Source: Myxococcota bacterium (GTDB lineage: Bacteria > Myxococcota_A > Polyangia > HGW-17). Taken from it: a stretch of DNA of 42,011 bases. Each line of letters starts with the position of its first letter. Position 1 is the first letter of the stretch. The stretch spans positions 1 through 42,011 of the forward strand of contig JAHJMN010000018.1 of NCBI GenBank assembly GCA_018821305.1. Reading direction: 5' to 3'. A program made the position numbers and the translations under genes. Below the pieces are notes generated by a model. That model was not told where the DNA came from. It did not search any database and was given only the letters and a program-made list of their open reading frames with translations. Shown here piece after piece: positions 2,823-19,843 of the stretch.

Positions 2823-3359
2823 ATGACAACTATCAAAAAACTTCAGTATGAAATTAATCATAATTTTGATGAAAAAAATGCCCGGCATTTTGTAAACGGT
2901 TTTGTAAGCGTTCTTCATTGTCATCATTATTCTACTCTTTATGCCCAACTTGCTGATGACGCTGAGCTCCTTGATGGAAAAGCTCTCCTTGTTTCTTCTA
3001 CTCAGGATGTATTTTATTCGGTTCTGAAAAAGTACTTTCAGGATAACGGGATTTCATGTCTTAAACAGAGAATTATTGTTACTGAACAATATTATTCAGC
3101 TTGTGGTCTTGGCAAACTGACAGTCGTTTCAGCAGGGGCTGACAGTGGCGATGTAATTCTCACCAGAAGCCATGTTGACGAAGGTTGGATTAAAAAATGG
3201 GGAAAAAGAGAAAAACCGGTTAACTTTTTGACTCAAGGGTTTATTGCTGCAGCCTTTTCTTCATTTTTCGATTTACCGTCAGGATCTTTTGAAGTTGTAG
3301 AAAATCAGAGCATCGTTGCCGGTGCGGAAAAATCAAAATTCACTGTTATCAGGAAATAA
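2823..3359 (+). CDS. V4R-like domain protein, paralog 1
   Basis: A 178-residue protein resembling the V4R (4-vinyl reductase) fold, a small-molecule or metal binding domain found in BchJ and some hydrocarbon sensors. Seen: CHHYS near residue 33, then a C-terminal pattern GFIAAAFSSFF...SFEVVENQSIVAGAEKSKF. In typical V4R domains the last part reads E-x2-C-x3-G-x3-C-x-F; here both cysteines are serine (ENQS and EKSKF). It is homologous to the next protein: both carry an aromatic-rich stretch followed by K-REKP or K-SEKP and then a Gly/Ala/Phe helix. RBS AAAGGAG. The domain call is by motif only. Confidence 0.68.
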   Translation: MTTIKKLQYEINHNFDEKNARHFVNGFVSVLHCHHYSTLYAQLADDAELLDGKALLVSSTQDVFYSVLKKYFQDNGISCLKQRIIVTEQYYSACGLGKLTVVSAGADSGDVILTRSHVDEGWIKKWGKREKPVNFLTQGFIAAAFSSFFDLPSGSFEVVENQSIVAGAEKSKFTVIRK

Positions 3360-3369
3360 GGAGTTTAAA

Positions 3370-3975
3370 ATGGCAATAAATAGACAGAAAATTATTGAAG
3401 ATATGTCCAAGATTGAAGTTGTTGGCAATGAAGACGGCCTTGTTCCTGCCTTTAATGTTTTTGTAACGCAACTTCCCGGTGCTTTATGGAACACTTTCGC
3501 CGAAAGGCTCACCAGAAAAGTTGGACCCGATTTGCTTGAAGCAGCTGAGTGGTTGCTTGTAAATGCAGCCCATGAATGCGGCTACCATACCGGTTACGGA
3601 ATAATCACAAGCGATGAGTGGAAGGCTGTTGTGGAACCTATGATAGAAAATGTTCCTGAAGACATACTTCACGGAGCATTTGCAGTTTTCACCGCATGGG
3701 GTTGGGCCAAAGCTGAAATAATTGAATTGATCCCCGGTGAAAAAATGGTCGTCAGGGCTTATGACTATTATGAATCAGATGTTGTCGAATATGGAAAATC
3801 TGAAAAACCTTCAGCATATATGATTCGTGGCGTCAGCGCTGCATTCATGGATCTGGCCTATGGAGGCACTTATGATCCTGATGGCAAAATCGGGCTGAGA
3901 ACATTTCAATGTGTTCAAACAAAGGGGATCGAATGCGGTAATGACTATGGTGAATTTGTTATAACAAAAGTCTAA
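3370..3975 (+). CDS. V4R-like domain protein, paralog 2
   Basis: A 201-residue paralog of the preceding protein. The ATG at 3370 is chosen over one at 3316 because it follows TAAGGAG and does not overlap the upstream gene. It has AHECGYHTGYG around residue 75-85, the WGWAKAEIIE strand, YGKSEKP, a GVSAAFMDLAYGG helix and the tail KGIECGNDYGEFVI. The usual two V4R cysteines are replaced by glycine in my alignment (TKGIEC and DYGEF), though other cysteines lie nearby, so a ligand site may be rebuilt. Last gene of the operon; only 5 bp separate it from convergent rsgA. Confidence 0.68.
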   Translation: MAINRQKIIEDMSKIEVVGNEDGLVPAFNVFVTQLPGALWNTFAERLTRKVGPDLLEAAEWLLVNAAHECGYHTGYGIITSDEWKAVVEPMIENVPEDILHGAFAVFTAWGWAKAEIIELIPGEKMVVRAYDYYESDVVEYGKSEKPSAYMIRGVSAAFMDLAYGGTYDPDGKIGLRTFQCVQTKGIECGNDYGEFVITKV

Positions 3976-3980
3976 ATCTG

Positions 3981-5069
3981 CTACTTGTTTTCCTTGCGGC
4001 GGCGGATTTCTCTTCCTTCGCGCACGAGGGTTCCCCACCGTCGGGCTTCTTTTTTTACCGCCCGTTTGTCACTTCGGAGCAGATTGGATCGATTCTCACG
4101 CAAAAGACTGAGCCAGGAATTATATCGGCCCTCACTGAGGTCTCCTGCTTCCACAGCTTTTTTTACGGCACAACCGGGTTCGTGCTCATGGGTGCAGTCC
4201 ACGAATCGACAGTTTTTCCCGAGAGCCTCAATATCGGAAAATACAGCTTCGATGGATTCCTCATCAACCATTAACCCGAACTCACGCATTCCCGGCGTAT
4301 CCATGATAAGTCCACCACCTTCAAGTTCAGTAATAAATCGAGAAGTTGTTGTATGTTTTCCACGATTGTCATGTTTTCGAACGGAATTTGTTTCAAAACG
4401 ATCTTCGCCGATGAGAGCATTCAGAATAGTGGACTTCCCTGCCCCGCTTGACCCTACAAGTGCCGAAGTCTGACCCAAGCGGCGACAATATTTGTCCAGC
4501 AAACTGATGTTGATCCCATAAAGAGCACTGACAACAACTACATCAACTCCGGGGCATGCAAGAGATACGTCCGATTCGGCCTCGGAAGTATCATCCATAA
4601 GATCGCATTTGTTAAGTACAATGATGGGAATCGCTCCGGACGAATACACTCCTGCGGTAAGTCGCTCGATACGCCTTACGTTGTAGTCTCCATCGAGACC
4701 GCAAACGATTAGCACTCTATCTACATTTGATGCAATTATCTGAGTTTCGGAGGTTCTTCCTGCGTTTTTACGATAAAAACAGCTTATTCTGGGCAAAAGT
4801 GCGATTATTCTCCCTGCCATCTGTCCATCGGCGGATTTTCGATATATGACCCAATCGCCAACGGACGGCTTTTCCATTTCTTTAAATTCCAGTGAAGGCT
4901 TTAACCGGATCACCCCCTCTTCACTGAATGCTTCATACTCGCTTCGAAACTCGGCAATAATACGAGCTGGCAAAAGAAGAATACGATCCGGTTCGGGAAA
5001 ATTATTGATTATTAAGTTAAAGTCTTTTTGAAAAAAGGGTGAAAAACCCATTGTTGTAAGATTACTCAT
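3981..5069 (-). CDS. rsgA: Ribosome small subunit-dependent GTPase A
   Basis: RsgA is a circularly permuted GTPase acting in late 30S maturation. The 362-residue form has an N-terminal OB-fold region (about 35-120), then G4 NKCD (153-156), G1 GSSGAGKST (206-214), G3 DTPG (257-260) and a C-terminal zinc knuckle with C287, C292, H294 and C300. The permuted G4-G1-G3 order is diagnostic. An upstream ATG at 5213 would add 48 basic residues without a good RBS; the start at 5069 follows GGAGACAG and gives the usual family length. The gene is monocistronic and convergent with the V4R operon. Confidence 0.95.
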   Translation of the reverse strand: MSNLTTMGFSPFFQKDFNLIINNFPEPDRILLLPARIIAEFRSEYEAFSEEGVIRLKPSLEFKEMEKPSVGDWVIYRKSADGQMAGRIIALLPRISCFYRKNAGRTSETQIIASNVDRVLIVCGLDGDYNVRRIERLTAGVYSSGAIPIIVLNKCDLMDDTSEAESDVSLACPGVDVVVVSALYGINISLLDKYCRRLGQTSALVGSSGAGKSTILNALIGEDRFETNSVRKHDNRGKHTTTSRFITELEGGGLIMDTPGMREFGLMVDEESIEAVFSDIEALGKNCRFVDCTHEHEPGCAVKKAVEAGDLSEGRYNSWLSLLRENRSNLLRSDKRAVKKEARRWGTLVREGREIRRRKENK

Positions 5070-5441
5070 TTCTGTCTCCAAGTCGGTAACCACCGACGCA
5101 AAGCCGAGGAAACCCCGGATAAAAACCCCTGAAAGCAGTCTCCAGTTGGCATATATAGAAGGGATATACCGGAGCCGCTTCAGAGGATTCCTGATTTTAA
5201 TTACCCGATACAAATACAGTGGCTATGCTGCATTATCAAAATAAGAATAAGACAGCAGCGACCAATGATAAATCAGGCAATATCCAGACAGAATAAAGTA
5301 AACATACACACCAATTGAGGCAAAAGCCGAAGAGAAAGAAAGTAATATCCTGTAACTCACTTCGCAAAGGATCTTCAGGATAGGAACTAAACACCGGGAA
5401 ATCCGGATTGAATTAAAAATAGTCCAAAGAAGGGTATTATG
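5070..5441. other. Intergenic region, no gene seen
   Basis: This 372-bp stretch holds the rsgA upstream region and the downstream side of the kinase gene. It is AT-rich and contains one hairpin repeat at 5346-5382. The reading frame extending from rsgA up to 5213 is not supported as coding. Confidence 0.6.
5346..5382 (+). repeat. Diverged hairpin repeat, CCTGTAA type
   Basis: TATCCTG (5346-5352) pairs with CAGGATA (5376-5382) around AACTCACTTCGCAAAGGAT. This is a diverged copy of the element at 40745 and 41883, whose equivalent reads AATTCGCTTCGCGAAGGAT. It sits downstream of the cyclitol operon and may act as its terminator. Confidence 0.55.
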
Positions 5442-6338
5442 TCAAGGTCTGTAAGTATTCAGGGAGGTGAATCTTGAAAAAACATTTTCCTGGATGTTAT
5501 CGAGGCCTTCGGAGCCGAGTTTTTCCACAACGAATGAAGCGGCAGCGGCACCCATATGTGCAGCGGAAAGGGCATCCGCTCCGCAAGCCAGGGCGCAGGT
5601 TGTCGCAGCGGCAAAAGTGTCACCCGCTCCAGTGGGGTCTGCAGTGTTGGTGCGATAAATACCCGAGTACTTTATGGCGGTACCTTCATGAATCCGGCAG
5701 CCTTCTTCGCCCAGTGTCACAAAAACATACTTAGCCCGGGCAATTAGAGCATCAAGCAATCCCGGAGAGCCGAATAACTCGATGTCTTCGGCACTGAGAA
5801 AAAATGCATCAACATGCTGGAAGGAATTGGTAAAATCCAGTGGCTGACCCTTAATTACAACTCTGCGCTCATCCGTATCTCGACGGGCGGTTTTCATAAA
5901 GCCCTGAAGACAAACGGATGTAAAGCGCGTATCAATATCTGTAAACCATGGCTCTGAGGGGTTAATCTCTTCAAAAACCGGAGCGACAAAGAGAGCATCT
6001 GCACTACGCCATGAATCGGGTAAGTGATTAAATCTGATTGGTGGAGATTGGGTTTCCACATGCTGAACTCGAAGCCCACCAACGGGATACGAATTGGTGA
6101 AAACCGTTGTTTTTCCTTCTCTGATGCCTTTAACTTCAAGGTCAGTCAGGGCGTCATCGCATATAAAGTCCTCTCCAACGCTTGTTAAAAGTCGGACTTG
6201 CGCTCCCAGCCCCTGCGCTGCTCGCGCTCCGAAAAATGCACATCCACCGGGACTGATTTGGTCTCCGTAGCGATCGTGGGTCACCTGCCCCACTGCGAGA
6301 AAGTTCAGGTTTCTTATTTTGTCACGCAGGGACATCAT
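5442..6338 (-). CDS. PfkB-family kinase, probable cyclitol kinase
   Basis: A 298-residue ribokinase/PfkB kinase that transfers phosphate from ATP to a hydroxyl of a sugar-like substrate. Visible: N-terminal VGQVTHD, substrate motif GGCAFFGARAAQGLG (31-45), a DF in VGEDF (57-58) and the C-terminal anion-hole/catalytic motif DPTGAGDTF (234-242, base D240). The N-terminus (VG.VTHD, GG.AFF, LG, VGEDF) resembles inositol-type PfkB kinases more than fructokinase. The start at 6338 overlaps the SDR stop by 4 nt, so it is translated with the cyclase and SDR. I infer a cyclitol kinase making the phosphate that the nucleotidyltransferase domain activates. Substrate unproven. Confidence 0.85.
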   Translation of the reverse strand: MMSLRDKIRNLNFLAVGQVTHDRYGDQISPGGCAFFGARAAQGLGAQVRLLTSVGEDFICDDALTDLEVKGIREGKTTVFTNSYPVGGLRVQHVETQSPPIRFNHLPDSWRSADALFVAPVFEEINPSEPWFTDIDTRFTSVCLQGFMKTARRDTDERRVVIKGQPLDFTNSFQHVDAFFLSAEDIELFGSPGLLDALIARAKYVFVTLGEEGCRIHEGTAIKYSGIYRTNTADPTGAGDTFAAATTCALACGADALSAAHMGAAAASFVVEKLGSEGLDNIQENVFSRFTSLNTYRP

Positions 6339-7084
6339 GCGAAAAATTCTCCACAGGAAATATTATAGGCTTGACCAGTAATTGCCCCGGCTTCTTCAGA
6401 AAGCAGGAACCCAATAAGAGCAGCCACTTCATCAGGTTGTACAAACCGGTGAAGAGGAATATTTTCAACAGCTTTTGCATATTCCTGCTCGGGAGTAGTC
6501 CCGTGGATCCCGGCAGTACGAACGAGATCACGCCGGGCCATATCTGTTTCAACCCAGCCTGGACAAACAGCATTGACAGTAATATTTCGCTCTGCCAGCT
6601 CTTTTGAAAAACATTTGGCAAGTCCTAAGACCGCATGTTTTGACGCAGTATAAGCACCATATGCCGGTCGTCCAAGTTTCCCGAGACCACTTGAAACAAT
6701 TACAGCCCGGGCATTATCTGTGAAGCGATCATGCAGGGCCCGGAAAAGATACCAGACACCGTCAACATTCGTTTTCATGACATTGTGCCAAACTTCATCG
6801 GCGTTGTCGTCGTCAAGGGCAGCTTGCAGGCATATTCCCGCATTTGCCACGAGGGCATCAACGGATTTGATATCAGTCAGTGCTCTGCGGATGGAAGCGG
6901 GATCAGAAACATCCATTTGCACAGGGATTATAAGACCATCTACACTCATTTTCGCTGTAACTTCAAGCGGCTCAAGGTTGCGACCTGTCGCATAAACTTT
7001 GTATCCTCTGGACGCGAGGAGTAAAGAAATATCTCGGCCGATACCCGTTCCGCCCCCGGTAACAACGGCAGTTTTTAGTGTCAT
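6335..7084 (-). CDS. Short-chain dehydrogenase/reductase (SDR)
   Basis: A 249-residue classical SDR. Rossmann motif TGGGTGIG (residues 9-16), NAG near 80, catalytic Ser in IVSSGLG, YTASK catalytic Tyr/Lys, and NAVCPGWVETDM after it. The start overlaps the stop of the fusion gene (ATGA at 7081-7084) and a GGAGG site lies inside the end of that gene. In this operon the SDR most likely reduces or oxidises the keto-cyclitol made by the cyclase. An unrelated polyol or 3-oxoacyl substrate cannot be excluded from sequence alone. Confidence 0.9.
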   Translation of the reverse strand: MTLKTAVVTGGGTGIGRDISLLLASRGYKVYATGRNLEPLEVTAKMSVDGLIIPVQMDVSDPASIRRALTDIKSVDALVANAGICLQAALDDDNADEVWHNVMKTNVDGVWYLFRALHDRFTDNARAVIVSSGLGKLGRPAYGAYTASKHAVLGLAKCFSKELAERNITVNAVCPGWVETDMARRDLVRTAGIHGTTPEQEYAKAVENIPLHRFVQPDEVAALIGFLLSEEAGAITGQAYNISCGEFFA

Positions 7085-8958
7085 AAAATTTCCTCCATTG
7101 TTTTTGTTACTGCTTCCACGAGGACATCATTGGTTACGGGAATTACATACTTACCGTTTACAGCCCATGGTTTACCCACATCCTGGAGCAAAGCCATCCG
7201 GGTACCTTCTGTAAGGTAACGCTTATTATATTTAAGAGTTTCAAATATATCCCGGAGTTTTATTCCAGCAGGTATCTTTGTTGGAAGCTTGTACTTGGAA
7301 ATTATTTCATCATGGAGATTAACCAGATCCGTCGTGCAGGCGCCCATAATCCGTGATACACGTGCGGCGACCATCATACCAATTGCAACACTCTCTCCGT
7401 GATATAGACTGTATCCCGAAAGATGTTCTACAGGATGCCCAAGAGTATGGCCGTATTGCAGAACCATTCCTTCCGCAAGTTCTTTGGGATCATTACGGGA
7501 AATTTCACATTTCAAACGTATATTATGCTTCACGACATGCTCGAGAAAATCGATATCATCGACAATTTTTCCGGGATATTTCATCAGATAATCTACATAT
7601 TCCTGTTCCTGACAAAGAGCATGCTTGATAACTTCAGATAAACCGTCATATATCAATCGTTCATCAAGAGTTTTCAACGTATCAACGTCCACTAAAACTG
7701 CCCTGGGACTGTAATATGAACCCACCATATTTTTACCGCTCTGTCCGTTAATCGCTTGTTTGTGGCTTATTGCAGCATCACACTGAGCCATAAGGGACGT
7801 GGGAATGTGGATTAGATTTAGCCCGCGATATACAGTTGATGCGATAAATCCGCAAATGTTGCAAACGACACCACCACCAACGGAGATGAATACAGACTGT
7901 TCATCAACACCTGTGCTTAGAACATGCTCAATTAATTGAGAATAATTGGTAAGACTCTTGGAATTTTCGCCATCGGGCATAACTATAAGGTTGATGTTGT
8001 ACCCCATTTTTTTCATGTCGTCGGCAAGTTTGCGTGCATAAAGTTTATTTACAGTCTCATCCGTAAACATAAACAGCGGAGAAGATGCGCACTCTCTCGG
8101 AATAAGTTCATAACTCATGGGATCGTTAAAGAATCCCCTCATCAAAATCATCTTTGTGGTCACAGGTTCCCCTGCAACAAAATCATAGATTTCATCTGCT
8201 TTCTTGATGTCATCTAAAACTGGGATCACCGCGGCATTATAACGTTTTTTCGCCCGTATTCGCATTTCTGCAGTAACCAGATCCGCTGGGAAATCAATAT
8301 CATTCCAATCACCAAAAGAAATAACTGTAGCTGTGAGTTTTCCGGCCTTTGCGATGAGCTCCATTGCGCTCCAAATGTCTTTTTTTCCGGCTTTTAAGAA
8401 TGATTCTTCAATATTTTTAAAAAATATATCCGGAGAAACAGCAAAAAGACCAGTATCTATTCCATTAAAATCCGAAAGCCCCTCCCCGGTTCGCATTATG
8501 AGGTTTCCTTCATACAAAACCCTCACCGCTGAGGATGGGTAACTATTTACATCCCTCGGATCAACTAGAAGGTTCACGGTCCCCGTTGAAATGTCGCTTT
8601 TTGCCATCATATCAATAAGTGATTGCTCGAAATAGTGGTCTCCCATAGCGAGAATAAAGGGTTCTGAAAGGAATTCCTTCGCTACCAGCGCACTGGATAC
8701 GATCCCCCGTTCCCAATCGTCGTTATCAATAAAATGGATATCAAGTTCAGGAATAAATCGGGTGGATATTTCTTTAATCAGAGTATTGCGCTCATAACCG
8801 GTAACAATAAAAATCTTAGAAATACCTGCCTTAATAAGTGACTCAATGGTATGAAAAATCAGTGGCTTCCCGCCGACTTCCACTAAGGATTTTGGTTTTC
8901 CCTGTCGATCTAGTCTGGACCCGGAGCCAGCTGCAAGTATAAGTGCTTGTTTTATCAT
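7081..8958 (-). CDS. Nucleotidyltransferase / sugar-phosphate cyclase fusion
   Basis: 625 residues, two enzymes in one chain. Residues 1-about 235: sugar-1-phosphate or cyclitol-phosphate nucleotidyltransferase, with LAAGSGSRL (8-16), KPKSLVEVGGKPL (21-33), GDH (106-108) and the WNDIDFPADL end resembling inositol-1-phosphate cytidylyltransferases. Residues about 265-625: AroB-type sugar-phosphate cyclase with NAD motif GGG (361-363), zinc ligands E442, H504 and H520, GKN (408-410) and YRG. The DHQ-synthase motif GGKT is replaced by SHKQA (398-402), closer to the S-x-KQA of 2-deoxy-scyllo-inosose synthases. Expected: ring closure of a sugar phosphate to a cyclitol ketone, and later nucleotide activation. 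RBS GGAGG; first gene of the operon. Confidence 0.87.
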   Translation of the reverse strand: MIKQALILAAGSGSRLDRQGKPKSLVEVGGKPLIFHTIESLIKAGISKIFIVTGYERNTLIKEISTRFIPELDIHFIDNDDWERGIVSSALVAKEFLSEPFILAMGDHYFEQSLIDMMAKSDISTGTVNLLVDPRDVNSYPSSAVRVLYEGNLIMRTGEGLSDFNGIDTGLFAVSPDIFFKNIEESFLKAGKKDIWSAMELIAKAGKLTATVISFGDWNDIDFPADLVTAEMRIRAKKRYNAAVIPVLDDIKKADEIYDFVAGEPVTTKMILMRGFFNDPMSYELIPRECASSPLFMFTDETVNKLYARKLADDMKKMGYNINLIVMPDGENSKSLTNYSQLIEHVLSTGVDEQSVFISVGGGVVCNICGFIASTVYRGLNLIHIPTSLMAQCDAAISHKQAINGQSGKNMVGSYYSPRAVLVDVDTLKTLDERLIYDGLSEVIKHALCQEQEYVDYLMKYPGKIVDDIDFLEHVVKHNIRLKCEISRNDPKELAEGMVLQYGHTLGHPVEHLSGYSLYHGESVAIGMMVAARVSRIMGACTTDLVNLHDEIISKYKLPTKIPAGIKLRDIFETLKYNKRYLTEGTRMALLQDVGKPWAVNGKYVIPVTNDVLVEAVTKTMEEIL

Positions 8959-9025
8959 AAAAAACCTCCAATTTTAAACCGGTAATTCAGGACAGCGAGT
9001 AAATACACGGTTCATAGTTGCCCTG

Positions 9026-9053
9026 ATTCTAATTACATTTAAATTTTGGTAAA
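9026..9053 (-). promoter_or_regulatory. Probable sigma70-type promoter of cyclitol operon
   Basis: On the minus strand TTTACC (9048-9053) and TAGAAT (9026-9031) are 16 bp apart, 4/6 and 5/6 matches to -35 and -10. The leader to the ATG at 8958 would be about 60 nt. Prediction from consensus only. Confidence 0.4.
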
Positions 9054-9144
9054 ACAAAAAATTGAAAAACCACAATTTGAATACGGTATATTTTGTGACC
9101 TGTTTTTTTATCTTGTATAGGCATGCTAGGTTTACAATAAAATT

Positions 9145-9174
9145 CTTCGCGAAGCGAATTACTCGACACGAACT
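9145..9174 (-). repeat. Partial copy of CCTGTAA-type repeat
   Basis: On the minus strand AGTTCGTGTC, two other bases, then GTAATTCGCTTCGCGAAG. This matches 41878-41904 with only the CT/GA difference. The element overlaps the last two bases of the histidine kinase stop codon, so it lies exactly at the gene end. Confidence 0.6.
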
Positions 9175-12100
9175 AACTATCTAACACTTCTCGGACACTG
9201 GTCATCAAATCAGCCATTGAAAACGGTTTTTGAATAAATGATACTCCGTCTTCAAGGACCCCGTGGTGGGCTATAACACTGGCAGTATACCCTGACATGA
9301 ACAATAACCGGATTCCTGGATATGTTGCAGAAATTTTTTCCGCTAAAAATCGCCCGTTCATCTCAGGCATAATAACGTCTGTCATTAGAAGATCAATTTT
9401 ACCTGAATGTTTCTGAGCTTTTTCCAAAGCCTCTCCCGGTGACGCCGCAGTTATCACAGAATACCCTTTTCTTTCAAGCATCGTCCGAGTCATTTTCAGA
9501 ATAGATGGCTCATCTTCTACCACCAGAATGGTCTCGGTTCCCCCGATTTCAGCATTTTTTTGTGGTTCAGGTGTGGTAATATCATCAACACTTATGAATC
9601 TTGGTAAATAGATTTTGAATACGGAACCACTTCCGGGCTCACTGTATACATTGATAAAACCATTATTCTGTTTTACAATACCATACACCGTAGCAAGCCC
9701 GAGGCCAGTGCCTTTTCCTACATCCTTTGTTGTAAAAAAAGGCTCAAAAATGTTATCCTGAGTGTATTTGTCCATGCCACATCCATTGTCACCAACTGCC
9801 AGCAGGACAAAATCCCCTGAGGTAAACCCCACATGGTCACTGCAATATTCTTCATCAAAGGATTTGATCCCGGTTTCTATAGTTAGCTTGCCCACCCCAT
9901 CAATAGCATCTCTGGCGTTAATGCAAAGATTAGCCAGTATCTGGTCTATCTGGGATGGATCCATTTTTACGGACCATATCTGGGAAGCCGGCCGCCATTC
10001 AAGATCAATGTCTTCACCAATGAGCCGGCGCAATATATTGAGCATGCTCTCCACCGTGTCGTTCAGATCAAGTTGCCTTGGAGCGATTGTCTGTTTTCTG
10101 GCAAAAGCCAGTAGTTGTTTTGTAATATCTGCCGACCTTTTCGCTGCTTTCTGAATCTCTTTTAGTTCAATATGAAGATCTTGAGTCTCATCTGCATGCA
10201 GTAAAGCTAGTTCCGTGTGACCCAGGATAACACTCAACATATTGTTGAAATCATGTGCTATACCGCCAGCCAAACGCCCGACGGATTCAATTTTCTGAAT
10301 CTGTGAGAGTTGATTTTCCAGTTTCTTCTTTTCATCAATGTCAATACTTACACCCAAAGCTGAATACATCTTGCCATTCTGATCAAACAGAGGATATGCA
10401 GAGAACATTGCAGTAAATGGCTCGCCACCCTTTCGAAAAAGCGTTGTTTCTCCCGCAAATCCAACTTTGCCGTCGCTCATTTTTTTGTGCATTTCTGGAA
10501 ATTTGGCAACATCGTCCGGTGTATGAAGAATGGACACAGGCTTCCCTAATACTTCTTCTTTTTTATAACCGAATATATTTTCTGCACCAGGGCTGAATTC
10601 GAGTATTAATGGTTCCGGGTACCGGGCCTCCGTTATTATAAAAGAGATATTCTGGGCAGCTTGAAAAATTGCCTGTAGTTTTTCAGTTTTATCAATGAGT
10701 GATTTCTCCTGATTTTTCTCATGTGTTACATCATTGTAGATTGTAACTATCTCTCCAGATGGAATTTTAAAAATGTAGTTTTCATAATAACTACTGAAAA
10801 CCTCGTCCTTGTACATTTTTACGGGGAAGAATGCTGGCATACCTGTTTTCCAGACTTGCCTCATCACGGGGATCAAACCATAATTGTCGATAGTTGGTCT
10901 TAAATCAAGTAGAGTCTTTCCAACCACTTCATGTCTTTGTTTTCCTTCCATTTCCAGACTTTTTTTATTAAATTCAACAACGATGTAATCAGTTCCGTTC
11001 TGCCCATCATTGATTACGTTATAAATTGCCGAACCAGAGGTCATATTATCGTATAGTCCCTTGAAAAGTGCCTGACTTTTTTCCCGGTCCATTTCAATTT
11101 TTTTCTGTTCCGAAATATCGACGTGAGTTCCAACCACCCGGACGGGTTTCCCATGCGTGTCTTTATAAATCCTGGACCTCGACAGAATATGAACCCAATG
11201 GCCTTTCTTGTGTCGCATCTGAAATTCCATATCAAAACGCTCACGCTTCCCCTCAATAACCTGATTTAACATCTGCCAGGATTTTGCCCCATCTTCAGGT
11301 CTTGTAAGCATTTCCCAAACAGAAAAATCATCGGGTAGTTCATCCGGTTTATAACCGAGCATGCGCTTCCATCCGGGTGAATAATATATTTTTCTGGTTT
11401 CCAGATCCCAATCGTAAACGCCGTCTCTGCTTGCATCCATGGCCAGATTATATCGCTCTTCGCTATCCTTCAGGGCTTTTTCCGCTCTTTTACGATCACT
11501 GATATCACGAAGGAAGGTTACAGCTTGTCCACCATCTTCTGAGCGAAACTGAATACTGACTTCTACATCAAAAACAGTGCCATCTTTGCGACGATGCTTT
11601 GTTTCAAATCGATCAAACCCGTTCATAACAACCTGTTGCATGTGCCCGGCTACCATTTCTGATGATTCAATAAATTCCAGCTCGGAAATGGTCATTTTCA
11701 GGAGTTCATCTTCGGTGTAGCCACTCATACGACAATAAGCATCGTTAACCTCAAGTAAATTTCCTTTAGTGTCAGTGAGCCAATATCCGTCCATTGCGGC
11801 TTTTAGAATTGAGCTGTACTTTCGCCCTGTTTCTTCTATCTGTTTTCGATGTTCAATTTCTTTGAGTTTTTTCAAGCCACTTTCGGAAATAACGGTTATC
11901 AAGCCTTTAATGAAAAACAGGTAATTTTCAAGTTGTTCCATGGTCCATACGGGAACCTTTTTGACTGCCTCCATATACTCCTGTTCATCGAACCCGTATT
12001 TCATGGCCTGAGTTCTGAAATAATCCAGATCCGGTTTTTCGAGAAAAAACTGTCCAGTGAAAAAATTACCATAGTGAATTCCGTCAATGACGATGGGGGT

Positions 12101-12379
12101 AGCATTGTCTATGAGACCATGAGGACAGCGATAACTTACAGCAGGTGTTGCTTCATGGATGTGATCTAAAATGTATTGATCGCTTTTAATACACATTTTT
12201 TCAGTGTCTTTATTTATTCTGTGAAACTTTGTACAAATATCCTGCCATGCGGTTGCAGTCAAAATATTTCCGTCGTTATCGATAATAGCTGATGGAAACG
12301 AATAAATTTTATTCAACCTGTCCTGCAGGTTCTGAAAGTGTTCAATATCGATGAGTTCTTGTAGTCTGTATTTCATCAT
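9173..12379 (-). CDS. Hybrid sensor histidine kinase, PocR + 4 PAS + REC
   Basis: 1068 residues, no obvious transmembrane segment, so probably cytoplasmic. Order: PocR sensory domain (about 5-170, with CPHGLIDNATPIVIDGIHYGNF), PAS1 (187-300), PAS2 (305-430, PAC end VVGTHVDISEQKK), PAS3 (435-560), PAS4 (565-685), dimerisation/phosphoacceptor helix GGIAHDFNNML (H709), HATPase_c with N box NARDA (821-825), DNGCGM and GTGLGLATVYG, and a C-terminal receiver with acidic pair E955/D956 and phosphoacceptor D1001 (MTDVIMPEMNG). PocR domains bind small organic molecules in known cases; the ligand here is unknown. No output regulator is adjacent. Start preceded by AGAGGA; a second ATG follows at once. 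Confidence 0.93.
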   Translation of the reverse strand: MMKYRLQELIDIEHFQNLQDRLNKIYSFPSAIIDNDGNILTATAWQDICTKFHRINKDTEKMCIKSDQYILDHIHEATPAVSYRCPHGLIDNATPIVIDGIHYGNFFTGQFFLEKPDLDYFRTQAMKYGFDEQEYMEAVKKVPVWTMEQLENYLFFIKGLITVISESGLKKLKEIEHRKQIEETGRKYSSILKAAMDGYWLTDTKGNLLEVNDAYCRMSGYTEDELLKMTISELEFIESSEMVAGHMQQVVMNGFDRFETKHRRKDGTVFDVEVSIQFRSEDGGQAVTFLRDISDRKRAEKALKDSEERYNLAMDASRDGVYDWDLETRKIYYSPGWKRMLGYKPDELPDDFSVWEMLTRPEDGAKSWQMLNQVIEGKRERFDMEFQMRHKKGHWVHILSRSRIYKDTHGKPVRVVGTHVDISEQKKIEMDREKSQALFKGLYDNMTSGSAIYNVINDGQNGTDYIVVEFNKKSLEMEGKQRHEVVGKTLLDLRPTIDNYGLIPVMRQVWKTGMPAFFPVKMYKDEVFSSYYENYIFKIPSGEIVTIYNDVTHEKNQEKSLIDKTEKLQAIFQAAQNISFIITEARYPEPLILEFSPGAENIFGYKKEEVLGKPVSILHTPDDVAKFPEMHKKMSDGKVGFAGETTLFRKGGEPFTAMFSAYPLFDQNGKMYSALGVSIDIDEKKKLENQLSQIQKIESVGRLAGGIAHDFNNMLSVILGHTELALLHADETQDLHIELKEIQKAAKRSADITKQLLAFARKQTIAPRQLDLNDTVESMLNILRRLIGEDIDLEWRPASQIWSVKMDPSQIDQILANLCINARDAIDGVGKLTIETGIKSFDEEYCSDHVGFTSGDFVLLAVGDNGCGMDKYTQDNIFEPFFTTKDVGKGTGLGLATVYGIVKQNNGFINVYSEPGSGSVFKIYLPRFISVDDITTPEPQKNAEIGGTETILVVEDEPSILKMTRTMLERKGYSVITAASPGEALEKAQKHSGKIDLLMTDVIMPEMNGRFLAEKISATYPGIRLLFMSGYTASVIAHHGVLEDGVSFIQKPFSMADLMTSVREVLDS

Positions 12380-12803: not shown

Positions 12804-14012
12804 CTATTGGTGCTGGTAGTCTTCGAGGATATCCGGGAATGGGCTCAGGGCTCTTTCAATAATTCCGTGAAGGAAGGCTATTGTCAGTCCGTAGTTTACG
12901 ACGGGGACTTGCTGTTTTTTGCAGCGCTCAAGGCGGGCGAGAATGGTTTTACGTGTTACCATACAGCCGCCGCACTGAATCACAAGGGAATACGGACTTA
13001 AGTCTTCAGGAAAGTCATGCCCGGCGGCAATGTCGAAAATCAGGTCAAGGCCCGTATACTGGCGCAGCCAGCGGGGAATCTTTACGCGACCAATATCTTC
13101 ACTGACTGGACGATGGGAACAGCTCTCAGCTATAAGAATTTTTGCTCCGTCTTTAAGTTTATCAATAGCTTTCAGTCCAAGAATATACTGACGCAAGTCG
13201 CCTTTTGCCCGGGCAAAAAGCACGGAAAAACCTGTAAGTCTGATTCCCTGTGGCACATCACCGCTTACTTTCAGAAAAACCTGAGAGTCCGTAACCACAA
13301 GGGATGGAGGATTTTTGAGGACATTTGTAAGAACATGGGGGAGTTCTTTCTCCTTGACGATTACGCAACTCACATCGGAGTCCAGGAGTTCACGCATCAC
13401 TTGAACCTGTGGCAGAATAAGGCGTCCTTTGGGGGCTTCCTTGTCGATGGGAATAACTAAAACGACGGTATCCGGTGGATGAACAAGATCAGAAATGAGT
13501 GGAATCTCAACTTCTGATGCGGATACTTTTGAGGCAATTGCAGTCTTAAGTTCGTCAATCCCGAATTTCGTCGCACAACTGATGTATACTATTCCGTCGG
13601 AGGAGCCTGCTTCACAACTTTGGGCTTTTAGATCCCATTTATTACGAACGTGGATCCACGGGGTTTTCATTTCCCTGAAAAGACTTACGAGTTCTGTTTC
13701 CCATTGGGTAGGTTCATCACTGTCCGTTACTAAAAGAGCAATATCCACCTTTTCCAGAACGGATTTAGTCTTTGCTACACGAAGGGTTCCCAGTTTGCCA
13801 TCGTCGTCGATTCCTGCGGTATCGTGAAATACCACTGGGCCGATGGGCTGAAGCTCATATGCTTTACTCACAGCATCTGTGGTGGTGCCTGCAACATCGG
13901 ATACGATGGAATAATCCTGACCCAGGAGTGCATTCATCAGACTGGATTTGCCCGTGTTGCGGCGGCCGAACAGACCGATGTGTTTCCGGTTTGAAGAAGG
14001 AGTATTGTTCAT
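12804..14012 (-). CDS. hydF: [FeFe]-hydrogenase H-cluster maturation GTPase HydF
   Basis: HydF is the GTPase and scaffold that carries the diiron subcluster to apo-hydrogenase. The 402-residue protein has G1 GRRNTGKSS (16-24), switch GTTTD, G3 DTAG (64-67), G4 NKWD (124-127), a dimerisation domain, and the C-terminal cluster motif C298-x-H300 ... C347-GG-C350. The start overlaps the hydE stop by 4 nt. Last gene of hydG-lyase-hydE-hydF. No hydrogenase structural gene is in the window. Confidence 0.95.
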   Translation of the reverse strand: MNNTPSSNRKHIGLFGRRNTGKSSLMNALLGQDYSIVSDVAGTTTDAVSKAYELQPIGPVVFHDTAGIDDDGKLGTLRVAKTKSVLEKVDIALLVTDSDEPTQWETELVSLFREMKTPWIHVRNKWDLKAQSCEAGSSDGIVYISCATKFGIDELKTAIASKVSASEVEIPLISDLVHPPDTVVLVIPIDKEAPKGRLILPQVQVMRELLDSDVSCVIVKEKELPHVLTNVLKNPPSLVVTDSQVFLKVSGDVPQGIRLTGFSVLFARAKGDLRQYILGLKAIDKLKDGAKILIAESCSHRPVSEDIGRVKIPRWLRQYTGLDLIFDIAAGHDFPEDLSPYSLVIQCGGCMVTRKTILARLERCKKQQVPVVNYGLTIAFLHGIIERALSPFPDILEDYQHQ

Positions 14013-15067
14013 TTATCCACCATGAAATTCGGAAAAGTTGTTTTCAGGAGAGAATCACCACGTACAAACGATGGCTCAAGACCACATCTACGGATTCGTG
14101 CTATGGCTTTCTCCATGGAAACGGAGCAGTCCTCATCGATGCCGGGTTTTCCAGGATATAACTGATAATCTGCGCGGTATTTTTGCCGGGTAATGTTGGG
14201 CATATAAACATTTGCGCATGATTTCAGAAGTTCATCCCGCCCTGTAGGTATGAGAACATCAAAAGCTGTAGTTGACGGAATGTGCGAAAGCGGGTTTAAA
14301 ATCCTCAAAATGGCCATCGTGCGGAGAGCAATTTCTGGATCCCACGGAAACGAACGGCCCGCAAGGGGTGTATCATTGTCGGCAATAAATGGCCCACATC
14401 CTATCATATCAAGCGCGAGAGTAGTTGTGAGGGCGATATCTTTTGCGAGGTCATTCAAATCCGGAGAAATCCCAATGAGAAACCCGCTACCAACCTGAAT
14501 TCCGGATTTTTTAATGTTTTCGATACATTCAAGACGAGATTCAAGAGTCTGACCCTCGTGGAGAGCAGCATAAAGACTTGCGTTTGATGTTTCGAATCGC
14601 AGGAGGTAGCGATCGCAACCGGAAGCATGGAATCGTGCATATTCTTGTGGGGCAAACTCGCCGATGGAAAGGGTTACGGCAACGTTGAATCGATTGTGAA
14701 TTTCCGAAAGAATGTCGCATATATCCTTCACACTGTACGTCGGATCCTCACCACTTTGAAGCACAAAAGTAGCATAGCCGGCTTGTTTGCCATCAGCACA
14801 CTGCTCAAGGATTTCCTCCTTTGTCATGCGATAACCAGACTTCCGGCGACCCGCTCCGATTCCACAGTAAGAGCACCGACACCGGCAGAAACTCGAGAAT
14901 TCAATGATTCCACGCAGAAGAATTTTGTTTCCAAAAACTCTGTCTCTGGTTGCTTTTGCAAGAGCATATATCTGATCCGTATCTGATTTAAGATTCAGAA
15001 GTTCAAAGATAATTGGAGTTTTATCGTTTTCGGACGTCAGGGCTCTGAGCAGATTATGGGTATTCAT
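14009..15067 (-). CDS. hydE: [FeFe]-hydrogenase radical SAM maturase HydE
   Basis: HydE is a radical SAM enzyme acting on an organometallic Fe-Cys intermediate from HydG during diiron cluster assembly. 352 residues with CX3CX2C at C61, C65 and C68 (FCRCRCSYCGIG), which binds the 4Fe-4S cluster and SAM, and a GED motif after the second strand (QSGEDPTYSV). BATS-like C-terminal region present. Both ends overlap neighbours by 4 nt, so it is translationally coupled to the lyase and hydF. Confidence 0.94.
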   Translation of the reverse strand: MNTHNLLRALTSENDKTPIIFELLNLKSDTDQIYALAKATRDRVFGNKILLRGIIEFSSFCRCRCSYCGIGAGRRKSGYRMTKEEILEQCADGKQAGYATFVLQSGEDPTYSVKDICDILSEIHNRFNVAVTLSIGEFAPQEYARFHASGCDRYLLRFETSNASLYAALHEGQTLESRLECIENIKKSGIQVGSGFLIGISPDLNDLAKDIALTTTLALDMIGCGPFIADNDTPLAGRSFPWDPEIALRTMAILRILNPLSHIPSTTAFDVLIPTGRDELLKSCANVYMPNITRQKYRADYQLYPGKPGIDEDCSVSMEKAIARIRRCGLEPSFVRGDSLLKTTFPNFMVDK

Positions 15068-16407
15068 TGTTCGACCCTGCTTCCAAGGGCTAAGACTGAC
15101 TTGGGAGAAAGCAAGTTTTCCACTTCCGATACCGAAGAGATTCCCGTTGAATTAACCGCTTCATAAATATCGACATTGTTGACAGTCATGTAGTCCGCAA
15201 CTTTTCGGGCAGTATTGTATCCGTACCGAAAAACAAGAACGGTGGCTGCAGAAGGCGAAAAAAGCAGGTTGCGAAGGCATAAATCAGAGTGAGCGCTGAA
15301 ACCGTTTATGCATTTTGTTTCAAACAAAGATACTGCCTGAATGAGAAGCTCAAGATCCTCAAAAATTGTGTGAGCCGCAAGAGGCAAAAAAGCGTTAAGT
15401 TCCAGTTCCCCAGCACTGAGACAGCGATTTATGAGGGTTTCGGAACTGAGGACTTTTTTCGCAACACTACTCACCATTTCGGGAATTACCGGATTTACTT
15501 TGCCGGGCATAACGGTGGATCCTGTCTGCATGGCAGGAAGGACAATTTCCCCAAGAAGGTGCATCAGTCGCAGATCCGATGCGATTTTCTCCAGATTTAT
15601 TGCAACAACTTTTATCATGGAAAAAGCTTCCGAAAGGTCATCGTGATTCATGGTAGAATCAAAAAGGTTTTCGCTGCGACTCACAGGAAAGCCTGTAATC
15701 TCGCGCAATCGACTGGACACGGTGAGAATATATTGTCTCGGGGCAGATATGCCGGTACCTATAGCTGTTCCACCGAGATTAACCTGTCGAATGCGCTCCG
15801 AAGCCTTGAAAACTCTCCATCGATCCCGTGATAGTGCCTGAGCGTAGGCGCCAAATTCCATACCCAGAGTACATGCAACTGCCGCAGTAAGTTCAGTCCT
15901 GCCGATTTTCACGACATGGGCAAACTCACTTTCTTTTTTTTGAAGACTGCACACAAGGGAGTTGAGAGCATTTTCCAGTTTCGGCAAGTATGAAAGCATT
16001 GCAATTCGCACTGCTGAGGGAAACACATCATTTGTACTTTGATGAAGATTTACATGTTCATAAGGATCGATACCTGCATCCGCTCCAGTTCGCTCCGACG
16101 CAAAAAAAGACGCAATTTCATTTATATTCATATTGACGGATGTTCCCGCACCACCCTGATGAGGATCCGTAACAAAATACTCAAAGTATCTTCCACTGCG
16201 CATTTCTTTAAGGACTGCGTCAAGGGAGTCGAAACGTTCATTGTCAATATAGCCCAGGTCATGATTTACGTGCAAACAGGCAAGTTTAACCGTTGCAAGC
16301 GCCTCATAAAACACCCTGCTCCATCGGGAAAGAGAAACGGGAAAGTTTTCCAGGGCTCTTGCAGTTTCAGAGGAATGGGGGAAAACTTTGTCGAGATCAG
16401 GATTCAT
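15064..16407 (-). CDS. Aspartase/fumarase-superfamily lyase in hyd operon
   Basis: 447 residues of the fumarase/aspartase superfamily. Signature GSTVMPGKVNP (296-306) carries the catalytic loop; HQSTNDVFPSA (122-132) and TSVNMN (89-94) match substrate-binding regions. At the position where fumarase has GRTH and E. coli aspartase GRTQ, this has GRTE (169-172), so it is not a standard fumarase. In this operon an aspartate ammonia-lyase role is plausible, releasing ammonium for the bridging dithiomethylamine ligand; aspartase-like genes are known in some hyd loci. Arginosuccinate or adenylosuccinate lyase is less likely. RBS GGGAG; overlaps hydE by 4 nt. Confidence 0.82.
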   Translation of the reverse strand: MNPDLDKVFPHSSETARALENFPVSLSRWSRVFYEALATVKLACLHVNHDLGYIDNERFDSLDAVLKEMRSGRYFEYFVTDPHQGGAGTSVNMNINEIASFFASERTGADAGIDPYEHVNLHQSTNDVFPSAVRIAMLSYLPKLENALNSLVCSLQKKESEFAHVVKIGRTELTAAVACTLGMEFGAYAQALSRDRWRVFKASERIRQVNLGGTAIGTGISAPRQYILTVSSRLREITGFPVSRSENLFDSTMNHDDLSEAFSMIKVVAINLEKIASDLRLMHLLGEIVLPAMQTGSTVMPGKVNPVIPEMVSSVAKKVLSSETLINRCLSAGELELNAFLPLAAHTIFEDLELLIQAVSLFETKCINGFSAHSDLCLRNLLFSPSAATVLVFRYGYNTARKVADYMTVNNVDIYEAVNSTGISSVSEVENLLSPKSVLALGSRVEQ

Positions 16408-16472
16408 ATTACTAAATCTCCCAGAGGATTTTCAACTTCAGACCGTTTTGGGTTTAACATCAAACAAATACA

Positions 16473-17846
16473 TCACATGAAAACGTCCCGTTCACCGTCT
16501 TTAATCTTATCGAGGATTGTCCGCAATTTTTCACGAAATTCCGGAGGATTTACGGCCTCCAGTTCCCGTCGAATCATTTCACTACCAACCTGCCGGACTC
16601 TTTCCGATGCGTGATCGATGAGGTATTCCGTAAAAGTAAACAATGCGTTTGGATGACACTTTTTCTTAATGTCGCCAGGTTTTGCATACTCCATGAAATC
16701 AAGCCCCGTCCTCCCGAGGCGATAACAACTCGTGCAAAACGAAGGTATAAAACCGTGAGTGACAATATCATAAATTACTTCATCTAAAGAGCGGTGATCG
16801 CCAAGAGAGAATTGTTCGCAGGATTCCGAATCACTGTATCCTCCAGGATTTGTCCTGGATCCGGCACTGATCTGGCTGATTCCGAGTTCGAAACTGGCCC
16901 TTCGCATGGCGGCATTTTCCCGTGTACTGAGAATCAGGCCTGTATAAGGGACGGAAAGGCGAAGTATTGCTATTATATGTTTGAAATCATCGTCACTGAC
17001 TGGGTATGGAGGCGTTTCGGTGATGTCACAACCGGTAGCAGGTTCAAGGCGCGGAACGCTGATTGTATGCGGGCCCATACCAAATTTCGCTTCAAGGTGT
17101 TCAATGTGGTTCATGAGGGCAAGAACTTCATATTTCCAGTCATAAAGTCCGAAAAGAACGCCGATCCCAACATCATCGATCCCTGCCTCAAATGCCCGAT
17201 CAATAGTTTCGAGACGATATGAATAGTCGCGTTTGGGCCCGCGGGTATGAAGTTTGTGGTATGTCTCCTCATGGTAGGTTTCCTGAAACAATTGATAAGT
17301 GCCTATTTCAGCTTCTTTTAATTGTTTGAATTCCTCAATGTCCACTGGTGCTATGTTTACATTAATGCGCCGAATGTTATCTTTACCGTGGCGCACGGAA
17401 TAAACCGTGCGTACGGAATCGAGGATGTAGTCTATTTTTCCACCGGGATATGCTTCTCCGCTTACTAAAAGAGCGCGCTTTTGTCCAGTTTTTAAAAGAT
17501 TAACCGTTTCCTCAGCGATTTCTTCCTGAGTCAGGGCACGTCGTTTTATTCCGCGGTTTGAAACACGAAACCCGCAATAGGAGCAATCATTGTTACACAG
17601 GTTTGAAATATAAAGAGGGGCAAAAATAACAAGTCTGTTTCCATATATGGAATCTTTGAGATCCCTGGCGGCATCGTGAATTTGCTTCCTGAGATCCGGA
17701 TCACTGACATTAGCTAAAACTGCAGTTTCCCTCATGCTGAGGCGAGACAGGGATTTAGATTTTTGCAGAATTTCCATAACTTCTGCTGCATCACCCGAAG
17801 TATCCATCATGCTTCTGATTTGATTGTCGTCGATTACGTGCATCAT
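16473..17846 (-). CDS. hydG: [FeFe]-hydrogenase radical SAM maturase HydG
   Basis: HydG cleaves tyrosine to give CO and cyanide and makes the Fe(CO)2(CN)Cys synthon of the H-cluster. 457 residues. Radical SAM motif C84-NND-C88-SY-C91; C-terminal auxiliary cluster motif CX2CX22C at C371, C374 and C397 separates it from ThiH. First gene of the operon, 65 bp before the lyase. The start at 17846 follows GGAGG; a second ATG follows immediately. The RBS lies inside a palindrome (17854-17867). Confidence 0.95.
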   Translation of the reverse strand: MMHVIDDNQIRSMMDTSGDAAEVMEILQKSKSLSRLSMRETAVLANVSDPDLRKQIHDAARDLKDSIYGNRLVIFAPLYISNLCNNDCSYCGFRVSNRGIKRRALTQEEIAEETVNLLKTGQKRALLVSGEAYPGGKIDYILDSVRTVYSVRHGKDNIRRINVNIAPVDIEEFKQLKEAEIGTYQLFQETYHEETYHKLHTRGPKRDYSYRLETIDRAFEAGIDDVGIGVLFGLYDWKYEVLALMNHIEHLEAKFGMGPHTISVPRLEPATGCDITETPPYPVSDDDFKHIIAILRLSVPYTGLILSTRENAAMRRASFELGISQISAGSRTNPGGYSDSESCEQFSLGDHRSLDEVIYDIVTHGFIPSFCTSCYRLGRTGLDFMEYAKPGDIKKKCHPNALFTFTEYLIDHASERVRQVGSEMIRRELEAVNPPEFREKLRTILDKIKDGERDVFM

Positions 17847-18385: not shown

Positions 18386-19843
18386 ATGAAAACAAAACTT
18401 TTACTTAAAATATGTTTAGCTTCTATTCTCATGTTTTCCTGCGCCGGTGGTGCAACGGATGTAAACAATGGTGGTCCCGAAATATGCGATAACGGCATTG
18501 ACGATGACGGTGACGGCTATTTTGACTGCGATGACGCCGATTGCACAGGAACATCAGCTTGTGCTAATCCCGAAATCTGCAACAACGGCATTGACGATGA
18601 CGGTGACGGCAAAATAGACTGTGCCGATTCGCAATGCCTCGGCCGTGTAGGCCCTGGTGGAATTCTCTGCGAACTTCAGGAATACAACTGCAATGACGGT
18701 GGGGATAACGACGGCGACGGTTTTGTGGACTGTAACGATCCCGATTGTTACTCAAGTATGTTCTGTCAGGGTGCGGAAAACTGTTCCAACGGCATTGATG
18801 ATGATGGGGACGGCCTTATAGACTGTAACGATTCCGACTGTACGGGAAACCCCGCCTGTACTGTGGCAGAAAACTGTTTCAACGGTATAGACGATGATGG
18901 GGACGGATATATTGACTGTGATGATTCTGATTGCAGCTCTGCAGAGGAATGCGAAGGCACTGAAGACTGCACAAACGGCATTGATGACGACGGTGACTGG
19001 CTTGCTGACTGTAACGACCCTGATTGCGATTCTCACCCCAATTGTACGGGCACCGAAATCTGCGATAACGGCATTGACGATGATCAAAACGGCGTAACAG
19101 ACTGTATTGATCCTGCTTGTGCTTCACATCCCGCTTGCCAGCCTACGGAAAACTGCTCAAACGGCAGCGATGACGATGGTGACGGGCTTATTGATTGTGC
19201 TGATTCTGATTGCATCGGTCAGGCCGGAAACGGCGGAACCTGTCAGGCCACTGAAACTTCCTGCACGGATTCCTTCGATAATGATGCCGATGGACAGACG
19301 GATTGCAGCGATCCCGACTGTGCTGCTGATGCTGCCTGCCAGACAGCTTCATGCACAACAATTACCGAAGGTTTTGAAAGCACATGGCTCCCATCCGGCT
19401 GGCTTGTCGACGCATATAACACATCCTATACATGGCAACGTGCGGGAAGTGAATACTCACCCCATGGCGGAAGTTATGTTGCCCGGGTTCCCTGGGATGA
19501 TTCATTTTTGTTTCCCATGGATCAGGATGAACTACTTGCAACTGCCCCGATCACCTGCACCGGTGGAACTTTAAGTTTCTGGTGGGCCGCCTCCTATACT
19601 TATGCTTACAACTATGATATTGAAGTTTATATAATGGTTGGTTCCACTTTCGGCGATGGCGATGAGTACACTCTTTCATATGGATTACTCCTTGAAAAAG
19701 GCACCTTTACTGACTGGACGTGGTACCAGAGCACATTCACAATTCCTGCCCAGTATAATAATATCCCCATTAGAATCGTCTGGCGCTACATTGGATACGA
19801 TGGTGCGGACTTCTACATGGATGACGTCCAATTCTCCAATTAA
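18386..19843 (+). CDS. Lipoprotein with nine MopE-like D-D-G-D-G repeats
   Basis: 485 residues. Signal peptide with lipobox LMFSC, so probably anchored in a membrane and exposed at the surface. Residues about 31-318 hold nine Cys-rich repeats of the form C-NGIDDDGDG--DC-D-DC, typical of MopE-like proteins of myxobacteria and relatives; the D-x-D-x-D-G runs suggest calcium binding and the cysteines disulfides. Repeats 6, 7 and 9 are degenerate (DDDGDW, DDDQNG, DNDADG). The C-terminal ~165 residues (ITEGFESTWLPSGW...FYMDDVQFSN) form a jelly-roll cleaved-adhesin/choice-of-anchor J-type domain. RBS GAGGG. A role in adhesion or carbohydrate binding is inference. Confidence 0.88.
   Translation: MKTKLLLKICLASILMFSCAGGATDVNNGGPEICDNGIDDDGDGYFDCDDADCTGTSACANPEICNNGIDDDGDGKIDCADSQCLGRVGPGGILCELQEYNCNDGGDNDGDGFVDCNDPDCYSSMFCQGAENCSNGIDDDGDGLIDCNDSDCTGNPACTVAENCFNGIDDDGDGYIDCDDSDCSSAEECEGTEDCTNGIDDDGDWLADCNDPDCDSHPNCTGTEICDNGIDDDQNGVTDCIDPACASHPACQPTENCSNGSDDDGDGLIDCADSDCIGQAGNGGTCQATETSCTDSFDNDADGQTDCSDPDCAADAACQTASCTTITEGFESTWLPSGWLVDAYNTSYTWQRAGSEYSPHGGSYVARVPWDDSFLFPMDQDELLATAPITCTGGTLSFWWAASYTYAYNYDIEVYIMVGSTFGDGDEYTLSYGLLLEKGTFTDWTWYQSTFTIPAQYNNIPIRIVWRYIGYDGADFYMDDVQFSN

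Follow-up and report, generated by a model that had tools for sequence, protein, structure and literature searches.

In the acarbose and validamycin pathways, the enzyme set consists of a cyclase, a reductase, a kinase and a nucleotidyltransferase. In thermophiles, relatives of CTP:inositol-1-phosphate cytidylyltransferase (IPCT) and of inositol kinase serve or accompany the pathway of di-myo-inositol phosphate (DIP). The acarbose pathway is described in PMC9200736 and the DIP pathway in PMC12275187. Routes by which bacteria build inositol lipids and sphingolipids through a CDP-head group have also been described (PMC9246714, PMC12275187); ceramide phosphoinositol is made by M. xanthus, according to a passage of PMC9246714 that cites this finding. 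The current study concerns a stretch of 42,011 nucleotides (the window) from a Myxococcota bacterium (GenBank assembly GCA_018821305.1, contig JAHJMN010000018.1). On its minus strand, at 5442-8958, three genes encode a fusion of a nucleotidyltransferase (NTase) with a sugar phosphate cyclase, a short-chain dehydrogenase/reductase (SDR) and a PfkB kinase. This operon probably cyclises a sugar phosphate to an inositol-like ring that is then linked to a nucleotide, and a single protein carries the enzymes of the first and last steps. It has the look of an inositol-metabolism branch not described so far, which may serve membrane lipids.

The enzyme classes of the operon are well supported, and every one of its enzymes falls in a known superfamily. 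In the literature searched, no description of the cyclase clade, the fusion or the pathway was found, nor any paper on Myxococcota cyclitols, on 2-deoxy-scyllo-inosose (DOI) with vibo-quercitol, or on quercitol bacterial lipids.

The fusion gene and its conservation

The first-pass annotation of this DNA, made from the sequence alone, had described an NTase and a cyclase in one chain, followed by an SDR and a PfkB kinase with ATGA-type junctions. This arrangement was borne out by the open reading frames (ORFs), the Pfam matches and the overlaps (Table 1). The same chain matched NTP_transf_3 over residues 5-120 and DHQ_synthase with DHQS_C over residues 325-580, and the fusion/SDR and SDR/PfkB junctions are both ATGA overlaps, each preceded by a GGAGG/TGGAG-type ribosome-binding site. 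In an AlphaFold2 model of the fusion (mean pLDDT 88), residues 1-241 matched nucleotidyltransferases and residues 255-623 matched cyclases of the dehydroquinate synthase (DHQS) fold.

Full-length orthologues, equal in length and 46-64% identical, were present in 8 of 59 related genomes. Among contigs of GTDB species, 30 loci matched, 28 of them in the fusion clade, all from Myxococcota or 'Deltaproteobacteria'-type metagenome-assembled genomes (MAGs). Of 379 evenly sampled Myxococcota genomes, 27 matched; about 23 carried the fusion once two ordinary DHQS recognised by motif (G153, G369) and two unfused hits (G300, G353) had been removed. Counting the relatives among the 59 as well, the fusion occurs in at least nine families, and three of the genomes are single contigs. 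Because same-length orthologues recur in relatives and at approximately 28 MAG loci, the fusion did not arise by misassembly. The SDR and PfkB genes directly followed the cyclase gene at every locus with enough contig.

The cyclase domain and its partner enzymes

A maximum-likelihood tree of cyclases was built from 68 rows, several of the reference rows being long, with five 2-deoxy-scyllo-inosose synthases (DOIS) sampled: BtrC (sequence taken from the PDB letters), the Sodalis homologue and three from Streptomyces. The 27 cassette cyclases formed one clade that was sister to the clade of these DOIS (support 100/99 for each of the two), and the union was again supported at 100/99 against DHQS, aminoDHQS, 2-epi-5-epi-valiolone synthase (EEVS) and desmethyl-4-deoxygadusol synthase (DDGS). 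The tree agrees with the first-pass annotation, which had put the cyclase nearer to DOIS than to DHQS. By sequence, the cassette cyclase is placed outside DHQS and EEVS, beside the DOIS clade and not inside it.

The domain has the hallmarks of the sugar phosphate cyclase superfamily, namely the DHQS fold, Glu/His/His zinc ligands and the phosphate-site Lys/Asn. The zinc ligands E442, H504 and H520, together with K400, K409 and N410, were invariant in 23 fusions, and SHKQA was found in place of GGKT, as had been noted from the sequence. The Asp that follows GGG in DHQS was Asn in all 26 cassette cyclases and all five DOIS, as against Asp in 33 of 33 DHQS-type sequences. The change of DHQS KT to KQ is likewise common to cassette cyclases and DOIS, the carboxylate-binding Arg264 of DHQS is Gly or Ala in both, and Asn108 and Gln142 of DOIS (BtrC numbering) are kept. 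In all fusions with data, GGKT had become [SG]HKQ and Asn268 had become Gln (A. nidulans numbering).

Two diagnostic positions differ from DOIS. Gln501 of the cassette clade (Gln in 26/26) corresponds to Glu243 in BtrC and to Asn in DHQS, and Lys579 (Lys in 26/26) corresponds to Asn321 in BtrC and other DOIS and to Lys in DHQS. The Pro/Asp signature after the zinc His was absent, the cassette cyclases reading QYGHTxGH as against DYGHxFSP. Given the loss of Arg264, the DOIS-type columns and the two differing positions, the pocket should accept, as in DOIS, a sugar phosphate that bears no carboxylate, with glucose-6-phosphate not assured as the substrate.

Fold comparison gave Z scores of 42-48 against DHQS-fold cyclases; closed-form DHQS outscored DOIS, and this comparison cannot separate the two. 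The fusion scored 287 bits with the aroB equivalog TIGR01357, below but near the cut-off of 305. The model TIGR04425 ('AroB-related putative phospholyase') was considered and rejected, with 201 of the 400 bits required. A true TIGR04425 member (L054, G060 C148:12425-13468, 421 bits) lay elsewhere in the tree and represents another uncharacterised sugar phosphate cyclase clade in the class. Separately, a DOIS-like cyclase annotated as 'hypothetical protein' was seen on a Streptomyces plasmid (L077, 4854-6005), adjoining an aminotransferase, a 'streptomycin biosynthesis protein' and an inosamine-phosphate amidinotransferase.

The cassette cyclase is not the DHQS of the shikimate pathway. The source genome has a second, separate DHQS on contig C94, 3.5 kb from chorismate synthase; grouping within DHQS as the only AroB of the genome, which would have spoken against the first-pass proposal, was not observed on either count. 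A separate DHQS was found in 13 of 13 tested genomes with chorismate synthase, and an ordinary DHQS over the cut-off in none of nine without it, so that the correlation was exact in 22 genomes. Neither gene was present in G006 and G035, where the fusion was confirmed, or in G102, which has a fusion-length frame (all three are MAGs, 86-95% complete). As an observation apart, the nine genomes without chorismate synthase or ordinary DHQS (G004, G006, G007, G009, G011, G027, G035, G057 and G102), several of them 93-95% complete, are possible aromatic auxotrophs.

The best solved relatives of the NTase domain were 2XME/4MND (IPCT) and 4JD0. Residues G11, G13, R15, K23, D107, D220 and D222 were invariant in 23 fusions, so that the GxGxRL motif, the Lys and the metal-binding Asp residues of IPCT are kept and the loss of key residues that might have undone the first-pass proposal was not seen. 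The best NCBIfam sugar-nucleotidyltransferase model was the bifunctional IPCT/DIPPS NF041135, at 112 bits against a two-domain cut-off of 580, the CDP-alcohol transferase domain being absent. In a domain tree, the fused NTases formed a group of their own within the IPCT-like sequences; basal support was weak. Judged from these resemblances, CTP is the probable nucleotide.

Unfused relatives of the NTase were also found in Myxococcota. In G300 (L139, 6464-8932) and G036 (L145, 6299-8439), an IPCT-like NTase is divergent from myo-inositol-1-phosphate synthase (MIPS), an arrangement that is a candidate CDP-inositol pathway separate from the fusion. In G028 the relative adjoins a CDP-alcohol phosphatidyltransferase gene, and in G353, the genome with an unfused cassette, it is fused to one in a single IPCT-DIPPS-like frame of 573 aa with a CDP-alcohol transferase motif (L142, contig C386, 2950-4668).

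The second gene matched Pfam adh_short (152 bits), and its TGxxxGIG and SS/YxxxK (Ser-Tyr-Lys) motifs, which mark a classical SDR, were conserved in 21 orthologues. The third matched Pfam PfkB. A kinase profile built from 21 orthologues and searched against the PDB scored highest with MJ0406, mainly over the C-terminal half; its best full-length matches included TK2285 (3W4S/4XF7) and TM0415 (1VK4/5YSP), both of which are myo-inositol kinases. An unverified sequence, putatively of a plant myo-inositol kinase, also matched the profile and was not used as evidence. The inositol contacts of TK2285 are D12, G26, Q136, R140 and D219 (PMC5931981); they align with D22, G32, Q145, K149 and D240 of the window kinase, which are invariant in the 21 orthologues. 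Four of the five are identical and the fifth changes Arg to Lys. Since these contacts are aligned and invariant, an inositol-like ring is the likely acceptor.

Proposed route, alternatives and fate of the product

On balance, the operon probably makes a CDP-activated cyclitol of the deoxyinositol type by a cyclase, reductase, kinase and cytidylyltransferase route, for which we infer the order of reactions, the exact substrate, the use of CTP and the fate of the product. Dependent on NAD and zinc, as its relatives are, the cyclase domain would convert a carboxylate-free sugar phosphate (glucose-6-phosphate or a close isomer) to a six-membered carbocyclic ketone of the deoxyinosose type, with loss of the phosphate. 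The SDR would reduce the ketone to a cyclitol, the PfkB kinase would phosphorylate a ring hydroxyl, and the N-terminal domain of the fusion would join the cyclitol phosphate with CTP to give a CDP-cyclitol. Such a route would parallel the conversion of myo-inositol-1-phosphate to CDP-inositol, with the ring coming from a DOIS-type cyclase in place of MIPS. The product would most likely end up in an inositol-type phospholipid or sphingolipid head group or in a phosphodiester solute, through the action of a transferase whose gene lies elsewhere.

The surroundings of the cassette were examined for the fate of the product. As the first-pass annotation had stated, no transferase for it adjoins the cassette in the window; RsgA (3981-5213) lies downstream and a hybrid histidine kinase (9173-12379) 214 bp upstream. 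Clustering of the ORFs of 29 loci showed no conserved neighbours beyond the cassette's own three genes and the ORFs antisense to them, and Pfam searches of ten co-directional neighbours gave a lyase, a hydrolase, CstA, peptidases, DNA ligase, acetate kinase and the like. At two loci (L123 in G160, on the same contig as L031, and L120 in G265), MIPS, a CDP-alcohol phosphatidyltransferase and a GtrA-like protein are divergent neighbours of the cassette, and an MMPL transporter was also confirmed at L120; the two loci represent two genera of one family, with fusions 72% identical. Of the CDP-alcohol phosphatidyltransferases and glycosyltransferases that the first-pass annotation had proposed to look for near the fusion, the former were found in one family, and no glycosyltransferase was found beside the cassettes examined.

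At L049, the unfused cyclase has a nucleotidyltransferase and a further CDP-alcohol transferase at a distance of two genes. This CDP-alcohol transferase was considered as a cassette partner and rejected: close orthologues occur in G028 and G036, which have the fusion, and in G044, where none was found, and it is absent from most fusion genomes.

Several points weigh against the proposed route. Gln for Glu243 and Lys for Asn321 of DOIS mean that the substrate may differ from glucose-6-phosphate, and the nucleotide specificity of the NTase domain is not readable from sequence. Most cassettes sit amid unrelated housekeeping genes, the linkage with MIPS was seen in one family only, and counts of PF01066 members across genomes revealed, by eye, no cassette-specific CDP-alcohol transferase subfamily. 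Furthermore, the cyclase, SDR and PfkB genes occur without a fused NTase at two related loci, L117 lacking the NTase and L049 having an unfused cyclase. Because all fused cyclases together have the L049 cyclase as their sister in the maximum-likelihood tree and L117 has no NTase, it is suggested that the three-gene core is older and the NTase was fused later; alternatively, the NTase may have been lost from the unfused loci. The nucleotide-activated cyclitol of the first-pass annotation is upheld in part: the genes, the affinity to DOIS and the pathway logic stand, whereas the two active-site positions depart from DOIS.

Among the alternatives, the one that survives best holds that the activated cyclitol is a UDP-, GDP- or ADP-linked pseudo-sugar, transferred by a pseudo-glycosyltransferase to a polysaccharide, a natural product or an antibiotic-like molecule, with no lipid involved. 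Although the enzyme set equals that of the acarbose and validamycin pathways and the base used by the NTase is not legible, this explanation is unlikely, as enzymes that use CTP are the nearest relatives of the NTase and the cyclase is not of the EEVS type. The cassettes examined were adjoined by no glycosyltransferase, aminotransferase or transporter (the MMPL gene of L120 noted apart), and housekeeping surroundings across at least nine families are unlike a natural-product cluster.

A soluble phosphodiester as the product in place of a lipid, a compatible solute analogous to DIP, appears rather improbable. The ties of the NTase and kinase relatives to the thermophile DIP pathway and the fusion of IPCT with a CDP-alcohol transferase in G353 speak for it, but the hosts show no clear sign of being thermophiles, the fusion has no DIPPS-like gene next to it, and the block of MIPS, CDP-alcohol transferase, GtrA and MMPL genes at L120/L123 suggests membranes.

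There is little probability that the cyclase is a true DOIS, converting glucose-6-phosphate to DOI in aminoglycoside-type metabolism. Its fully supported sister position, the shared Asn108 and Gln142 and the common loss of the DHQS Arg would fit, but the clade stands beside DOIS with both substitutions in 26/26 sequences, and the cassette has no aminotransferase or glycosyltransferase partner; the neighbours at Sodalis and Streptomyces DOIS loci include glycosyltransferase, radical SAM or aminotransferase genes. A diverged shikimate-pathway DHQS, as hinted by the Pfam match, the near-cut-off TIGR01357 score and the best pairwise PDB matches of the fusion (DHQS), is already contradicted by the tree, by the loss of R264, N268 and GGKT, by the separate DHQS near chorismate synthase and by the persistence of the fusion in genomes without that enzyme, and deserves almost no weight.

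For the CDP-cyclitol route, a lipid sink would be reasonable in view of the described CDP-head-group lipid routes and the ceramide phosphoinositol of M. xanthus; the product is possibly a lipid head group, as judged by the position of MIPS and the CDP-alcohol phosphatidyltransferase in one family. No MIPS was found in the cassette-bearing genomes G028, G156, G164 and G172 (96-99% complete), and MIPS is therefore not needed for the cassette. It can be proposed tentatively that the operon is a new branch, in which a cyclase clade with a substrate or product of its own is hard-wired to a cytidylyltransferase and CDP-deoxyinositol leads to an undescribed membrane-lipid head group of Myxococcota. 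On that proposal the cassette might, with equal caution, be the sole supply of an inositol-like head group in cassette-bearing genomes where MIPS was undetected, such as these four.

If the route is correct, it would be a second way to an activated inositol-like head group that bypasses MIPS, and a DOIS-type reaction would be in use outside antibiotics. The DHQS signatures of Pfam and NCBIfam on genes of this clade mask a cyclitol pathway in at least nine Myxococcota families. The clade offers a testable sister group for the origin of DOIS chemistry, and the cassette is a candidate source of unassigned lipids in myxobacteria-like organisms.

Features of the window and comparison with known systems

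The base composition of the operon resembles its surroundings. Scans for promoters and terminators at the operon gave chance-level results, a promoter-like match at 9053-9026 being within chance expectation.

Table 1. Coordinates of the operon and its parts in the window
Feature	Position	Strand	Basis
NTase-cyclase fusion gene, 625 aa	7081-8958	minus	ORF; full-length orthologues at ~28 loci
Fusion residues 1-241, IPCT-like NTP-transferase domain	8236..8958	minus	Pfam, solved structures, invariant residues
Fusion residues 255-623, sugar phosphate cyclase domain	7090..8196	minus	Pfam, tree, motif/column tables, fold
Classical SDR oxidoreductase, 249 aa, proposed cyclitol-ketone reductase	6335-7084	minus	Pfam, motifs, ATGA overlap with fusion
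PfkB-family kinase, 298 aa, myo-inositol-kinase-like, proposed cyclitol kinase	5442-6338	minus	Pfam, profile matches, inositol contacts
Ribosome-binding-site region of fusion gene (TTGGAGG before ATG)	8959..8970	minus	sequence
Upstream region of operon	8959-9172	minus	sequence

Three other regions of the window were noted. At 12804-17846 on the minus strand, HydF, HydE, an aspartate-ammonia-lyase-like gene and a further radical-SAM gene (HydG/ThiH-like by eye) are close or overlapping and form an [FeFe]-hydrogenase maturation operon with an aspA/fumC-family lyase inside. Two small overlapping genes on the plus strand (2823-3359 and 3316-3975), with no Pfam match at E 0.01, lie near a cysteine-desulfurase-family gene (1167-2300). 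The protein encoded at 18386-19843 on the plus strand has many CxNGIDDDGDGxxDCxDxDC-type repeats and is probably secreted and calcium-binding.

Among known systems, DOIS (BtrC, 2D2X/2GRU, and the Sodalis and Streptomyces homologues) is the nearest clade to the cassette cyclase, with which it shares the KQAxN motif, Asn for the DHQS Asp, the lack of the carboxylate-binding Arg and the zinc ligands. Unlike DOIS, the cassette cyclase forms a separate clade with Gln for Glu243 and Lys for Asn321, is fused to an NTase and has no aminoglycoside genes around it. CTP:L-myo-inositol-1-phosphate cytidylyltransferase (2XME, 4MND, 4JD0) includes the closest solved relatives of the NTase domain, with the catalytic residues kept and unfused Myxococcota relatives beside MIPS or CDP-alcohol transferases, but the cassette NTase has its own clade and, as its fusion partner, a cyclase in place of a CDP-alcohol phosphotransferase. 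The ribokinase-family myo-inositol kinases TK2285 (MI3K_TK) and TM0415 share the Asp, Gly, Gln and Asp contacts with the cassette kinase; the similarity is distant, Arg is replaced by Lys, and the acceptor here is probably a deoxyinositol.

The CDP-inositol lipid pathway of gut Bacteroidetes (PMC9246714) and the CpgD/CDP-glycerate sphingolipid pathway (PMC12275187) also use a cytidylyltransferase to make a CDP-head group, but their ring comes from MIPS or their head is glycerate, and they involve no cyclase of the sugar phosphate cyclase family, SDR or PfkB kinase. In PntC-AEPT (6PD1/6PD2), a cytidylyltransferase likewise shares one chain with a second enzyme of its head-group pathway, although that pathway is a phosphonate one and the partner a transaminase. 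EboD of the ebo cluster (PMC5133447) was, like the cassette cyclase, annotated as DHQS and is in fact a new sugar phosphate cyclase clade in a cyclitol operon; it differs in lying near the sedoheptulose-7-phosphate (EEVS/DDGS) side and in having UbiA-type partners.

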